Notes under the pieces: generated by a model
The model's database searches: none
What the model saw: the letters and a program-made list of their open reading frames with translations, nothing else
What the model was told of the DNA's origin: nothing
Part shown: positions 671-15,115 of the stretch, piece by piece
Layout of the letters: each line of letters opens with the position of its first letter
How positions within the stretch are numbered: position 1 is the first letter of the stretch
Made by a program: the position numbers and the translations under genes
Origin: a virus
Direction: 5' to 3' (one strand)
Length of the DNA stretch: 26,287 bases
Virus record (IMG/VR): IMGVR_UViG_3300045738_000177
Location: 1 to 26,287 of that record

Positions 671-853
671 CTCTTTGTTGACCGCCTACTATCAGGATTG
701 TAATCTATTGCAAGAAAAGCTAGATTGGGTGCAACCCAATAATAAAAACGACACGCACAGGGAAGTGCGTGACCTTTAATGCCGGTTTTCTTGGTAGACA
801 GGGAGTCTACGCACAATATATTACAATTCTGATACCCTGAGCGAAACAAAGAG
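671..853 (+). ncRNA. Candidate structured RNA, about 183 nt, three-way junction
   Basis: Read on the + strand the sequence folds into a compact nested structure. P1 pairs 671-679 with 845-853 (9 perfect pairs). P2 pairs 690-704 with 820-834 (15 pairs, one G-U at 696-828), and after one mismatch 706-710 with 814-818 (5 pairs). P3 pairs 711-718 with 786-793 (8 perfect pairs) and encloses hairpin P4 (724-730 with 734-740) and hairpin P5 (752-758 with 765-771, loop AGGGAA). Hairpin P6 (794-799 with 805-810, loop AGGGA) abuts P3, giving an almost flush P2/P3/P6 three-way junction. Eight T residues follow P1 (854-861). The single wobble is G-U on + and would be a C-A mismatch on minus, favouring + transcription. 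I cannot match it to a known RNA family. Alternatives are a DNA element such as a packaging or recombination site, or a 5' leader of the terminase gene. Confidence 0.6.
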
Positions 854-2508: not shown

Positions 2509-4242
2509 ATGCCATTACCATTTTTAGTTCCAGTAGCGATTGCTGGTATTCAATACGCCGCTCGTTATGCAGCCGTTAAGGGCGCTCGAAAACTATTGTC
2601 TTATGGCGCTCGCAAAATTCTCAAAAAAACTGGCAAATTTACCTCTCAATACGGAGGCAGAGCAGTCACAGGTGCATTCTATGCAGATGCTGTAAACGAA
2701 GCTTCTAAGGGCAATTATGAGCCTCTAACTTATCTATCTATGGGTGGAATACCAGGAGCTGGAAAAGTTATAAGTAAAATACCGGGTGTTGGTAAAAAAT
2801 TAGAAAGTATATACGCTAGATCGCAAGGAAGAACTGTACTGGGAGGACCTGGCATGGGAATAGATGATGCCATTGTTGTTACTAGAGGTGCGTTTGGATC
2901 TCGGATAAATAAAGCGGGCAAGGTTAATAAAACATGGAGACGGATAAAAGTAGAGGCACCTAAAGATAAATCGGGTCCAATATTTGATGTTGATAAACAG
3001 CTTTCAAGACAAAATACAACTAAATCATTTACTTCAACTAAAGCTAAAAAACAACTTGAAGTATCTACCATAGTAGCTGGCAAAAAAAGAGGAGGGGTGT
3101 ACTATGGCGCTCAAACAAGAGAAAAGGATATTCGTAGAGGATCAGCTAAACCCGCTACTTATTTGCCAAATACAATGGGGAAAGGGAGTTCTATCTTAGG
3201 ATGGAAACTTAAAAATGGAAAACCTACCCATGATAAACCTGTAATCAGCTCACAAAGTAAAGATTATAAAGCATTTAAAGCTCAAGAGCGTTATGAACAA
3301 TCCCTTAAACATAAAAAAATACCGTTAAAAGCCTCTTATCCTAAATATTCATATGAGCTGGTAGGTAGAACAAAAGCTGACATTATCCATGAAATCAAAA
3401 CAGCAAAAAGCAAAGCAGCTAAAAGAGTAGCTCAATATAAAATAAAAGGAGATGATCTTAATAGATTATATGTAGGTAAAGATAAATCTAGCCAAATAGC
3501 AGCAAAAATCTTTGTAAAAGAGGGTAAGAAGATTGGAGTGAATATAAAGGTTATGGATAAACCTAGTTCTAAGATATCAAACCAAGTAGATTCTGTTCTA
3601 AGAGGTAAAGCAGATTATTTAAACAGAGAATATACTAGCAATCCAAATAAAAAATTAGACACACATCTTAGAGAATTAGAAACTAAAGATGTGGGTGGGA
3701 AAATGAAAGCAATAAGAAGCTGGGTATATGCACAGCCATATAAGGTCAAAAGCAGCCCAGGGAAAGCAATGGTCTTTTATAGAGCGCAACATGGTAAAAG
3801 CATTAATCAGACTATTACCACTGCTGATGGTAAACAAGAGGTTAGAAAGGTACTAGAACATATTAAACCTGAGTGGTCTGTAACAAAATGGGTAAAAGGT
3901 TCATTGGAAGCAATTGAACGACAAGCAAAGATAGGAAAGTACCCATATAAAAAAACAGCAGAAGTAGAAATGATCCCACTTGATAGACCTCCAATAGAGA
4001 AAAGAGACCTTTATAAACATACTTTGAAACAAAAATATAAAAAATTTAAAATAGATGATAAGGGTAAATTAGTAATGGATAGTCAGGAAACTATCGAATG
4101 GTGGAAAAGAATTTCGAAGAAAGCATACTTAAAATATGGAGGAATGAAGACACCAGAACAAAGACTGGCTGTAAAGGAGATAACTAAAGCAAAGATTAAA
4201 CCACTTCCTGGTCAACTTGATTTATTTAAACCTAAGAAATGA
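2509..4242 (+). CDS. Large basic cassette protein, possible C-terminal ART-like region
   Basis: I do not firmly recognise this 577-residue protein. Residues 1-60 are hydrophobic to amphipathic (MPLPFLVPVAIAGIQYAARY, then ARKLL and ARKIL repeats). Residues 78-98 are Gly/Pro/Lys-rich (GGIPGAGKVISKIPGVGKK), suggesting membrane contact. The middle (about 130-410) is Lys-rich and charged. Residues 421-490 contain VFYRAQHGK (Arg425), EWSVTKW, a helix and AEVEMIP (Glu485 and Glu487). This order is reminiscent of the Arg ... aromatic ... Glu layout of ADP-ribosyltransferases, though much weaker than in the next gene. The C-terminus ends LPGQLDLFKPKK. It has an AGGGG-type ribosome site (around 2498-2502), and its stop overlaps the next ATG (ATGA). 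It could be an ejected or virion-associated protein. Confidence 0.6.
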   Translation: MPLPFLVPVAIAGIQYAARYAAVKGARKLLSYGARKILKKTGKFTSQYGGRAVTGAFYADAVNEASKGNYEPLTYLSMGGIPGAGKVISKIPGVGKKLESIYARSQGRTVLGGPGMGIDDAIVVTRGAFGSRINKAGKVNKTWRRIKVEAPKDKSGPIFDVDKQLSRQNTTKSFTSTKAKKQLEVSTIVAGKKRGGVYYGAQTREKDIRRGSAKPATYLPNTMGKGSSILGWKLKNGKPTHDKPVISSQSKDYKAFKAQERYEQSLKHKKIPLKASYPKYSYELVGRTKADIIHEIKTAKSKAAKRVAQYKIKGDDLNRLYVGKDKSSQIAAKIFVKEGKKIGVNIKVMDKPSSKISNQVDSVLRGKADYLNREYTSNPNKKLDTHLRELETKDVGGKMKAIRSWVYAQPYKVKSSPGKAMVFYRAQHGKSINQTITTADGKQEVRKVLEHIKPEWSVTKWVKGSLEAIERQAKIGKYPYKKTAEVEMIPLDRPPIEKRDLYKHTLKQKYKKFKIDDKGKLVMDSQETIEWWKRISKKAYLKYGGMKTPEQRLAVKEITKAKIKPLPGQLDLFKPKK

Positions 4243-4826
4243 GTATATTACCTAAAAGAAGAATTAAGAATCCAGCAACAGCAGCAGAAATAGCTATTAC
4301 TAATCGCAATGTTGCTAATATTTATAAAGGATTAGAGTATGGTTCTTATGCACTAGGAGGTCTTGGTCTTGTAAAGGGAGGAGCTAGTCTATTAAAAGGA
4401 TATATTAAAAAGCAAGGTCTAAAAAATAAATATAAAGTTTACAGAGGCGAAAATAAAGAAAATGTTCAATGGGACACAGCTGGTGGAAAACTTTTAGGCA
4501 GATTTTATTTTGGTGGCGAGAGCAAAAAAAGTGCCGCTAGATCGTATGCAAGCGGAGGAAGTTACCCAAATGTTTCTAGTGCAAGAGTATATAGTATTTT
4601 ATTACCCAAAACACAATATAATATTGCTAAAAAAATTGCAGCTAGAAGAGAGGGAGCAAGTCTATCTATGTCTGGCGAAGTAAATATACCAAAATTATAT
4701 GTAGGTAAACAAAAACTTGAAATAGGGCAAACATTATTAGCACAAGGAGAAGCTTTGAAAAATAAACTAATTAACTATAAAACTAGAAAAAAAATAAAGA
4801 GTTTACTTAAATGGCACACTCAATAG
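4239..4826 (+). CDS. Candidate ADP-ribosyltransferase-like protein with shared N-terminal module
   Basis: In this 195-residue protein, residues 3-46 are the 44-residue module also found in the 1487-2332 gene (30 of 44 identical), ending in a Gly-rich hydrophobic segment (YGSYALGGLGLVKGG). The remainder follows the layout of phage ADP-ribosyltransferase folds. KVYRGE has Arg69 in the first strand, GRFYFGGE (87-94) precedes a helix with KKSAARSYASGG (Tyr103), a strand reads ARVYSILLPK (115-124), and GEVNIPKLYV places Glu147 in the usual final catalytic position. If correct, it would transfer ADP-ribose from NAD+ to a host or phage target. The call rests on motif order by eye. Its ATG overlaps the upstream stop, and its 3' end overlaps the next small ORF by 16 bases. 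Alternatives are a non-catalytic virion or toxin-like protein. Confidence 0.6.
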   Translation: MSILPKRRIKNPATAAEIAITNRNVANIYKGLEYGSYALGGLGLVKGGASLLKGYIKKQGLKNKYKVYRGENKENVQWDTAGGKLLGRFYFGGESKKSAARSYASGGSYPNVSSARVYSILLPKTQYNIAKKIAARREGASLSMSGEVNIPKLYVGKQKLEIGQTLLAQGEALKNKLINYKTRKKIKSLLKWHTQ

Positions 4827-11915: not shown

Positions 11916-14396
11916 ATGGGTGTAGCACGAATATCACAAACAAATTTTAATAGAGGAGAGATTGACCCTAAGTTAATAGGAAGAGTTAGTCTCCAGTCTT
12001 ATGGGAATTCCTTAAAGAAAGCTAGAAATGTTATTGTTAATAACCAGGGATCAGTAGAGAGAAGACCTGGGACTTACTTTAGAGCAGATTTAGGAGTTGC
12101 TTCTAGGATAGAACCTTTCATTTTTAGTGGATCACAAGAATATATCTTTGCATTTCAAAACACAGCCCTGAAGATTTACTCTACTGCTGGCGTTTTACTT
12201 CAGACACTTACTAGCCAACCATGGGCTACAGCTGATTTATATGAATTAAATTATACTCAACAAGGCGATACAATGATTGTCGTACATGAAGAATTTATGC
12301 CTGTAGTTATTACCAGAACAGGTGCAACAACCTTTACAGCAGCTACCTTTGCCTTTGATTCAAGCGTTAATTCTGAAAAAACATACCAACCTTATTTTAA
12401 ATTTGCAGTTGACACAATTACCCTAGATATTGATTCAATAACTAAAGATGCGACAGGAGTTACTTGTACTACATCTAGTGCATATTGGTCATCAGATTAT
12501 GTGGGAACAAGAATACGATACATGGGAGCAGAATTACTTGTCACTGGATATAGTTCTACAACTGTAATAACAGCTACGCTTAAATCAGTACCATTAATGG
12601 AATTAGATGAAGATCCGTTTGCAACATCAGCTGGTTCAGCTATTGTAACTGTAACTCATGTAGCACATGGATTTAGTACAGGAGCATCGGTAACTATTGC
12701 TGGGGCAGAATCAATCAATGATACCGATGGCGATGGTATTGCATATAGCAATCTTAATGGAGCTAAAACCATTACTACAATAGATGATAACCACTATCAA
12801 TTTACATCTGACTCATCAGATGCAGCAACAGAATCTGTAGATGGAGGAGGTGTTAGAGTTACCGTATCCGGGCATCCACCAACAAGAAACTGGGATGAAC
12901 AAGTATTCTCAGCAGTTAATGGTTATCCTAAAGCTGTGGCTTTTCATGAACAAAGACTATTTTTTGGAGGAGTTACTAATCTTCCAGATGGAATACAATC
13001 TAGTAAAACAGCTACCTTTTATAATTTTGATTTAGGCGATGGAAATGATGCAGATTCAGTCCAAATTCAAATAGCATCAGATGAAATTAATGAAATTAGA
13101 CATTTAAGGTCAGGGAAAGTTTTAGAAATATTAACTAATACAGCAGAGTTTTATTTAAAACCTCAAATATCAAAAGCAATAACACCAGCAGATATACAGA
13201 TTATAAGACAATCTACTAATGGAACACAGCAAAAAGCCATGCCTAGATTCTTTGACGGATCAACTATTTATGTTCAAGATAATGGTCGAACTATTAGAGA
13301 ATATTTATATAATTCAGCACTGGAAGAATTTTCATCTGCTCCTATCAGTATTGAAGCTAATCATTTAATAAGCTCGCCAACAGACAGTGCATCAGTTACG
13401 GCTCTTCCTAATAGAACAGAACAATTATTCCTTTTAGTAAATGATGATGGCACAATAGCTGTTTTTTCATCTCAAAGAGCAGAAAAGATATTTGGATGGG
13501 TACAATGGAATACTGATGGAACTTTTGAATCTGTTTGTGCAACTAGTGACACCATATATTTTTCAGTTAAAAGAACCATTAATAGCGCAACTGTTTACTA
13601 TTTAGAACAATTATCAGCAACTGTATTTGATATACCAACAGACATGACCGTAACCAAAACATTGTCTGGGAGCTACCAACCACATGGGTCCCCCTTGACC
13701 AACGGTACAACGAGTAGCTCCACTGGTGTAATTGTTAATGGATTTACCAATGCTCCTTTAGTGGGAGAGAAGTTTACCTTTGCTGGGAATTCAACAGTTT
13801 ATACAATAAACGCTGCATCAGCAACAAGCAATTCAGGAGAATATGCTATCACAGTCAATGCGGCAGTTAGCACAGCTAATGATATAGCCCTTACTTTTAC
13901 AGCTTCTAAAACATGGTCAGCTTTAAATTCTGCACCAGACATGAGAGGATTGACGGTATATGGAACATCAGGATCAGAAGAGGGAGGCAACATAAATTAT
14001 TATGGAGATGGAGTTGTTACTAGCGGTGGTGTTGTCGTTCTTGATTCTGTTGCAGCAGCAATAGATATAGGTCTAAATTATACCTTAGAAATCAATACTT
14101 TAGCAGTAGATGCTGTTATTGAATCTTCTGGAGGAAAAGCTCCATTAACAGGTTATCCAAGAAAAATAGGTAAAGCTATTTTTGAATTATCAAATAGTTA
14201 TAATCTTAAAGTAAATACTAATGATGTTATTATCAATACCGTTGCGGATCTAAACACTACTACAACATTACCTAGTTTTACTGGTAAAAAAGAAGTATAT
14301 TTCTTAGGATACGATTTAGAACCCTCTATGGAAATAACTCAATCAGCACCATTACCATTAAGGATATTGTCTATTACATCGGAGATTTATTACTAA
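11916..14396 (+). CDS. Tail tubular protein B (gp12-like nozzle)
   Basis: This 826-residue protein is the nozzle of a short non-contractile tail. The N-terminus is diagnostic of the family (ISQTNFNRGEIDPKLIGR, then RNVIVNNQGSVERRPGTYF), with the later phrases VAFHEQRLFFGG, NGRTIREYLYN and HLRSGKVLEILTNTAEFYL also typical. The C-terminal third has Thr/Ser/Gly-rich beta segments and ends PLPLRILSITSEIYY. T7 gp12 has about 794 residues, so the length is normal. The start follows the previous stop with no gap and only a poor ribosome site. Its stop overlaps the next ATG (TAATG). Confidence 0.92.
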   Translation: MGVARISQTNFNRGEIDPKLIGRVSLQSYGNSLKKARNVIVNNQGSVERRPGTYFRADLGVASRIEPFIFSGSQEYIFAFQNTALKIYSTAGVLLQTLTSQPWATADLYELNYTQQGDTMIVVHEEFMPVVITRTGATTFTAATFAFDSSVNSEKTYQPYFKFAVDTITLDIDSITKDATGVTCTTSSAYWSSDYVGTRIRYMGAELLVTGYSSTTVITATLKSVPLMELDEDPFATSAGSAIVTVTHVAHGFSTGASVTIAGAESINDTDGDGIAYSNLNGAKTITTIDDNHYQFTSDSSDAATESVDGGGVRVTVSGHPPTRNWDEQVFSAVNGYPKAVAFHEQRLFFGGVTNLPDGIQSSKTATFYNFDLGDGNDADSVQIQIASDEINEIRHLRSGKVLEILTNTAEFYLKPQISKAITPADIQIIRQSTNGTQQKAMPRFFDGSTIYVQDNGRTIREYLYNSALEEFSSAPISIEANHLISSPTDSASVTALPNRTEQLFLLVNDDGTIAVFSSQRAEKIFGWVQWNTDGTFESVCATSDTIYFSVKRTINSATVYYLEQLSATVFDIPTDMTVTKTLSGSYQPHGSPLTNGTTSSSTGVIVNGFTNAPLVGEKFTFAGNSTVYTINAASATSNSGEYAITVNAAVSTANDIALTFTASKTWSALNSAPDMRGLTVYGTSGSEEGGNINYYGDGVVTSGGVVVLDSVAAAIDIGLNYTLEINTLAVDAVIESSGGKAPLTGYPRKIGKAIFELSNSYNLKVNTNDVIINTVADLNTTTTLPSFTGKKEVYFLGYDLEPSMEITQSAPLPLRILSITSEIYY

Positions 14397-15115
14397 TGTG
14401 TGATCCAGTAACAATGGGAATAGCAGCCGGAGCAGCATCAGGATTTGGAGCTTATTCTGCTGGTGCAGCTGGGATAATGGGAATGAGTGCAATGAGTTTT
14501 GGTACAGCAGCATCAATCGGATTAACAGTAGGTAGTAGTGTTATACAATTAGGAGCTGCTTCTGCCGCTAATAGAGCAGATAGACTTTCAGCTGGTCTAG
14601 AAGAAAGGCAATACTCAGAACAAGCAAAAAGATATAAAGAACAAGCTGATGCACAAGAACTAGAAACAACAACAGCAATCATAAATAGGAAAAGAGAATA
14701 TTTAAGAAATTTATCAACAAATACAGCATGGATGGGAGCCTCTGGAATAACAGTATCTTCTGCTAGTAATAGAAATTTATTACAAGATAATTATCAAACT
14801 TATAGAGATGATGTTTCAGCTATTGGTTTAATGGGAACTGAGGCTAGATATGCGTCAATTAGTCTTGCACAAGATGCCCTTACTGCCAAAGAAAGTGTTG
14901 CTCCATTATTAAAAGCTAAACAAACAAAAAGAAAATATGACACGATTAGCAGTATTGCTACTCAAGCTGCTGAAATAGGGACTAAGATTGGTAGCAGTAC
15001 ACCTGGAACTCCTAAAACTAAAAAGACAAATCTTCTTAAAGGAACATCTACAAGACAAGCACAAAACTACGAAAAACTTAGAAGAAAATTATTAGGTAAA
15101 GAATATGGCTATTAA
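14396..15115 (+). CDS. Internal virion protein, gp14-like (putative)
   Basis: This 239-residue protein has an MCDPVTMGIAAGAASGFGAY start and a Gly/Ala/Met-rich hydrophobic N-terminal region (residues 6-60) able to enter membranes. An Ala/Gln/Glu-rich helical middle (EERQYSEQAKRYKEQAD) and a basic end (LRRKLLGKEYGY) follow. In T7-like phages the gene after gp12 codes for gp14, which is ejected and forms the outer-membrane part of the DNA conduit; a similar MCxP start with a GIAAGAASG-type hydrophobic stretch is common for it. The internal phrase MGASGITVSSASNRNLLQD is also usual. It overlaps the next gene by 11 bases. Confidence 0.75.
   Translation: MCDPVTMGIAAGAASGFGAYSAGAAGIMGMSAMSFGTAASIGLTVGSSVIQLGAASAANRADRLSAGLEERQYSEQAKRYKEQADAQELETTTAIINRKREYLRNLSTNTAWMGASGITVSSASNRNLLQDNYQTYRDDVSAIGLMGTEARYASISLAQDALTAKESVAPLLKAKQTKRKYDTISSIATQAAEIGTKIGSSTPGTPKTKKTNLLKGTSTRQAQNYEKLRRKLLGKEYGY

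Follow-up and report, generated by a model that had tools for sequence, protein, structure and literature searches.

Adenovirus VA RNA I is a viral hairpin RNA of ~160 nt, with a terminal stem, a junction and a long, wobble-containing apical stem, which mimics double-stranded RNA (dsRNA) (PMC6599070). In staphylococcal phages, a structured RNA from the terminase region, cabRNA, triggers the host CBASS system; its sequence is not conserved, and it is the dsRNA structure that matters (PMC10686824). Obelisks and other viroid-like RNAs are ~1 kb long, rod-like over their entire length and common in the ocean (PMC11922315). Finally, the single-strand origins of rolling-circle elements are strand-specific imperfect hairpins in which structure outweighs sequence (PMC4595007).

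The element described here is found in the window, that is, the whole 26,287-base virus record that was analysed, and is the compact member of a family of rods in Hodr-like marine phages. Across this family the rods retain their position and their pairing but not their sequence. Most likely the element is a viral RNA, not described before, whose function lies in its shape. The likeness to VA RNA I, a long imperfect hairpin with a junction, is one of shape only, since there is no sequence or Rfam relation; VA RNA I is, moreover, a Pol III transcript in animal cells, whereas the rods of the phages are up to 1.36 kb long and overlap with a divergently transcribed gene. cabRNA is an earlier example, in phages, of an RNA of the terminase region that is sensed by its shape, but it arises within terS-terL, while the rod lies upstream of terS and left of the predicted terS promoter. 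In addition, no kilobase inverted repeat has been described for cabRNA, which triggers immunity. Obelisks are circular RNA replicons encoding Oblins, whereas the rod is encoded in DNA at a fixed locus, also in the isolate Hodr, where the strand that folds runs antisense to the divergent gene. On the folded strand of three giant rods, there is no ORF of at least 60 aa besides terS, which lies outside the rod.

The Locus and Its Fold

The record stems from a tailed marine phage whose TerL shares 81% identity with its counterpart in Pelagibacter phage EXVC031P Hodr. The terminase small subunit gene terS (976 to 1332, + strand; Pfam Terminase_2, PHROG 2538) and gene X (253 to 615, − strand) diverge, with the folded element (663 to 861) in their spacer. 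Gene X, called as an ORF only, opens a divergent operon and encodes a helical, fast-evolving protein; a terminator-like hairpin lies past its end (214 to 239, − strand). Neither a tRNA nor a tmRNA was found.

The minimum free energy (MFE) of 671 to 861 on the + strand is −67.7 kcal/mol, compared to −38.7 ± 3.8 for 200 dinucleotide shuffles, none of which folds as well (z −7.7). This bears out the sequence-only reading, made without any database search, that helices nested in this way are unlikely by chance, and all of the helices listed there return in the MFE fold. A 9-bp closing stem is formed by CTCTTTGTT (671 to 679) and AACAAAGAG (845 to 853). The long stem (690 to 710 with 814 to 834), of about 21 bp, consists of 15 bp (690-704/820-834), a 1x1 C/T mismatch and 5 bp (706-710/814-818), and includes one G.U pair. 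The 8-bp stem CAAGAAAA/TTTTCTTG (711-718/786-793) encloses an apical domain (711 to 793 in all) with two 7-bp hairpins, one at 724 to 740 with a GCA triloop and one at 752 to 771. It directly adjoins a 6-bp hairpin on the 3' side (794 to 810), which makes the junction almost flush. Eight T residues follow the closing stem (854 to 861). The element extends beyond the 671 to 853 originally proposed: the A-run at 664 to 668 additionally pairs with this T-run, and the best local structure is 663 to 861 (z −8.1). The same interval tops the window in a strand-neutral inverted-repeat score, which counts G.T as any mismatch: it scores 26, while the median over the tiles is 14 and the second-best tile reaches 22. 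The element is almost certainly a real, selected structure. The sequence-only reading named no family of this shape at this position, and a covariance-model search of Rfam 15 with the window and 12 relatives indeed gave no family at or above the gathering threshold. There was thus no Rfam match to 6S RNA either, which mimics the sigma70 open complex with a central bubble.

A 5' leader was among the roles first suggested for the element. A promoter-like sequence (TTGGCT-17-TATAAA; 941 to 969, + strand), seen in the sequence and in a PWM scan, lies 7 bp upstream of the terS start codon (ATG at 976), and therefore transcription of terS would begin to the right of the element and give a nearly leaderless mRNA. 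The promoter pattern CTCTGTTATAT is present in close relatives, and TTGAC[ACT] is found between rod and terS in 49 of 74 non-redundant relatives. With the predicted terS promoter to the right of the rod, a terS leader is not supported. An intrinsic terminator was also rejected: the window has its T8, yet a T5 is found at just 3 of 74 right ends, and the T-run is thus not conserved. The PWM scan gave no convincing leftward promoter for X.

Rods Upstream of terS in Related Phages

A TerS search of viral contigs yielded 593 relatives; 80 of these were retained, and further scans added more. Since elements were de-duplicated by shared k-mers and not by a tree, the element counts given here are not fully independent. 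Upstream of terS, local folds have a z below −5 in 89% of 73 loci (median −9.5), as compared to 38% (median −4.5) for the 490 nt downstream, taken as a control. In the X-terS spacer region of Hodr-like marine phages, the inverted-repeat score is at least 22 in 125 of 157 distinct loci and reaches 237, whereas dinucleotide shuffles (six for each of six loci, 36 in total) score 12 to 19 and tiles elsewhere in these loci 10 to 26. In Hodr itself, the repeat extends from −690 to +117 of terS with a score of 97, the next tile elsewhere in this genome reaching 25. The scanned stretches of the less related phages HTVC010P, HMO-2011, MEP301, BcepC6B, Ss1 and Pmp11 contain no comparable repeat (best 32). 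Genome contigs gave five matches only, all of them metagenome-assembled, with no prophage seen, and the collections searched hold no close homologue of the window's own element. An artefact of assembly or amplification is rejected, because the position is constant, the arms are imperfect and co-varying, and the isolate Hodr has the rod.

Many contigs start 0 to 125 bases before terS, as if assembly breaks at the hypervariable rod (L006, L011, L023, L040, L059, L076, L077, L089, L111, L120, L121 and L123).

Gene X changes fast as well. In the window group, X proteins are 24 to 33% identical where TerS is 83 to 89% identical, and the rod sequences are unrelated. No match for X was found in Pfam, PHROG or PDB. 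The structure model for X of one relative (L016) is helical, with a pLDDT of 84.6 and no fold match at E < 0.001; the model for the window's X has a pLDDT of 65.8. In Hodr (L126), the operon led by X includes an ArdC-like anti-restriction gene (13573 to 14457), followed by DnaT-like, RecE-like, SSB and RusA genes. The detrended GC-skew of this genome has its minimum at ~12095, at the rod, and its maximum at ~19358, at the convergent end of the X operon; these extremes track gene direction, and an origin is possibly located there.

Rod Anatomy and Gene Overlap

The rods range from about 150 to 1,360 nt, a roughly ninefold variation, and no sequence core is common to them. The exact form of the three-way junction, which the sequence-only reading had highlighted, is not a conserved feature across relatives; the long rod is. 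A conserved apical motif, CGAGGAAYGAGG, was considered and rejected, as it occurs at just 4 of 126 loci, though GAGGAA and GCGAAGC are commoner on the + strand than on the − strand. Two otherwise different rods, L088 and L093, have a near-identical apical loop, GGGCGTTCGGCTTG(C/T)CCGAATCCCCCGAAG, a rare case of conserved apical sequence.

A packaging RNA had also been proposed. Like the pRNA of phi29, the rod would be a phage RNA with a three-way junction and a shape kept over sequence, and it adjoins terS; pRNAs of this type retain their shape while their sequences differ (PMC12670572). The phi29 pRNA, however, has a fixed compact size and is part of the packaging motor in phages that use pRNA, whereas this phage has both TerS and TerL. 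Since the rods grow to 1.36 kb and have no sequence core in common, a role of the phi29 type is extremely unlikely.

Among 64 elements with a called X, 17, that of the window included, are confined to the spacer, 41 reach the 5' part of X and 6 span all of it, and in 13 of 74 the rod terminates within terS. The left arm reaches antisense into gene X in most lineages and across the entire gene in a few; the right arm is its noncoding complement. The giant rods L173, L175 and L185 have a left arm that extends from the terminator-like hairpin of X across the complete gene. At many loci the arms include the ribosome-binding site and start codon of X. In Hodr-like phages, the outer pairing of X with terS coding regions is real: coding X and the terS side pair with scores of 49 to 66 at eight loci, as against 19 at most for shuffles.

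This architecture would suit a cis control of X, in which X expression is limited by a transcript of terS sense that is complementary to the start of the gene or to all of it, and the right arm keeps this antisense RNA self-paired or stable. The partial or whole overlap in 41 and 6 of the 64 elements, the inclusion of the X translation start and the giant rods that begin at the X terminator-like hairpin all point in this direction. Nevertheless, the 17 spacer-only elements do not touch X, some rods (the 13 ending inside terS) extend into terS instead, and an antisense arm that is paired with its own complement makes a poor antisense. Cis control therefore seems an unlikely, albeit plausible, explanation.

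The pairing between the arms is rich in indels, with some perfect runs of 28 to 32 bp. Evasion of RNase III by avoiding long perfect helices was considered and rejected, since the longest runs (median 15) equal those expected from random placement (15.1); weak avoidance is seen in Hodr-like rods alone.

Compensatory Change

Comparisons of related rods show that compensatory evolution is strong. Between L175 and L185, which are 81% identical, 44 double changes preserve Watson-Crick pairing and 11 break it, whereas pairings slid by 1 to 2 bases preserve at most 4. L175 and L155 differ by 65 kept and 36 broken double changes, with 7 to 14 for slid pairings, and L052 and L050 by 18 kept and 12 broken, with 2 to 6. 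The slid control is the fair comparison because the pairs were taken from one member. In the close relatives L001, L003 and L004 of the window group, changes are mostly at unpaired positions and there are no paired double changes. The covariation among homologues to which the sequence-only reading had attached weight is thus seen in pair comparisons of the relatives, and not in close pairs of the window's own group.

The similarity of the arms could also be due to template switching (quasi-palindrome correction), which would keep them alike without selection for the fold. The indel-rich pairing and the long perfect runs of 28 to 32 bp are what such a process might leave behind. What speaks against it is the distribution of mismatches between the two strands.

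Which Strand Folds, and as What

Read on the terS-sense strand, the 74 non-redundant elements contain 594 G.T and 217 A.C mismatches, where 435 and 344 are predicted from arm composition. The G.T:A.C ratio is 52:0 in L173 and 30:2 in L175, and the single changes between L175 and L185 comprise 15 to G.T and 3 to A.C. Relative to expectation, + strand mismatches in 47 elements amount to 1.5x for GT, 1.2x for TT, 0.65x for AA, 0.5x for AC and 0.3x for CC. The excess of G.G over C.C, T.T over A.A and A.G over C.T is a skew in the same direction as that of G.T over A.C. Apical purine GNA triloops number 21 on the + strand versus 3 on the − strand. From the G.T bias it follows that the strand that folds is, for the family, the terS-sense strand. 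An impression of strand neutrality gained from the first lineages was revised when more lineages were added.

The bias is not universal. It is absent from the window group (the window, L001, L002, L004, L005 and L008; G.T:A.C 8:14), from Hodr-like rods and from the L050-L053 lineages. As the AT-rich group of the window lacks it, the strand of the window element rests on analogy with relatives. The transcript of the + strand assumed in the sequence-only reading is accordingly upheld as to the folded strand in relatives and not by any bias in the window's own group, and the lone G.U pair on which it was based is no evidence for a strand.

Neither a structure in dsDNA nor template-switched arms would give such a strand skew, which thus argues against both. 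Since template switching acts on dsDNA, it cannot yield a bias of G.T over A.C (52:0; 15:3 for single changes); in the biased lineages it is already hard to keep, and overall we regard it as very improbable. An inverted repeat acting at the DNA level beside terS, either as a cruciform or as a hairpin formed in the course of concatemer processing or packaging, would agree with the proximity of terS and, being symmetric, with the lack of strand bias in the Hodr-like, L050-L053 and window-group rods. The strong + strand bias of the other lineages and the kilobase, bulge-rich arms within genes are difficult to reconcile with it, and such a role is improbable.

A different possibility is a single-stranded DNA element, the + strand folding during replication as a single-strand origin or a single-stranded promoter. 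G.T is tolerated in RNA as well as in DNA, and the order of + strand mismatches (GT, AG, TT and GG over AA, CT, AC and CC) fits DNA too. C(GAA)G triloops, such as those at the apex, have a very high stability in DNA, and the enrichment of GNA loops is compatible with single-stranded DNA as well. The GC-skew minimum of Hodr (12,095) coincides with the element. Known single-strand origins are strand-specific and depend on structure over sequence (PMC4595007), which is reminiscent of the 594:217 ratio in the family, a feature absent from the window's group. Such origins, however, act as single-stranded DNA; no rolling-circle single-stranded stage is known for this phage, and tailed dsDNA phages have no obligate one. 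Moreover, a single-strand origin needs no kilobase rods across coding genes, the skew minimum tracks gene direction anyway, and the preference for U.U over A.A (TT 1.2x, AA 0.65x) suits RNA better. A single-stranded DNA role is therefore conceivable but rather unlikely.

It is the lack of a known single-stranded stage in tailed dsDNA phages, together with the excess of T.T over A.A, that leads us to prefer RNA. We infer this step, as no boundary promoter was found: promoters or −10 boxes are not enriched at the rod boundaries on either strand. An RNA made from the + strand is likely across the family and, by analogy, somewhat favoured for the window element.

A Possible Function in Trans

The best explanation overall, which we advance tentatively, is a putative trans-acting RNA that works by its rod shape. 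From the terS-sense strand, between terS and the early gene X, the phage would express a long-hairpin RNA, and this double-stranded rod would act in trans through its shape. It might serve as a mimic or decoy and occupy a dsRNA-binding protein, be it a host nuclease, a sensor or protein X itself. Such a shape-based decoy is the likeliest of the candidate mechanisms, though by itself still doubtful, with cis control of X and a single-strand DNA origin as its chief competitors. It would account for the persistence of shape and position against rapid change in sequence and length, next to a fast-evolving early gene. What persists is a long double-stranded form at the start of the early operon, which in Hodr includes genes for DNA replication and recombination. 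An effector that works by shape, such as VA RNA (PMC6599070), fits better than a sequence-specific one: a core is lacking, lengths differ about ninefold, and not all rods are antisense to X.

The rods may even constitute a new class of phage noncoding RNA, a suggestion that is no less speculative than the decoy. This class would be defined by rod shape and location, not sequence, and extend to about 1.36 kb, with one arm antisense to a whole divergent gene and the other co-evolving to pair with it; its members would serve as trans dsRNA effectors against host factors in abundant marine bacteria. If so, this would be, to our knowledge, the first long hairpin RNA of a tailed phage for which shape alone is maintained, with numerous compensatory changes in its pairs and a protein gene overlapping one arm. 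The isolate Hodr, which grows on Pelagibacter HTCC1062, provides a ready test system. terS has been listed among the genes of hypervariable islands in marine phage populations (PMC3909814), and the rod, if this reading holds, could help explain why the terS region is such an island.

Elsewhere in the window, two + strand genes that flank a 577-aa gene (1487 to 2332 and 4239 to 4826) encode proteins with a common segment, RRIANPATQEEIARTNRNVGYAYKALEIGSYAVGGVGLLK and RRIKNPATAAEIAITNRNVANIYKGLEYGSYALGGLGLVK, respectively. Pfam and PHROG searches gave no match for either protein; a VYRGE stretch in that encoded at 4239 to 4826 may be reminiscent of ADP-ribosyltransferases.
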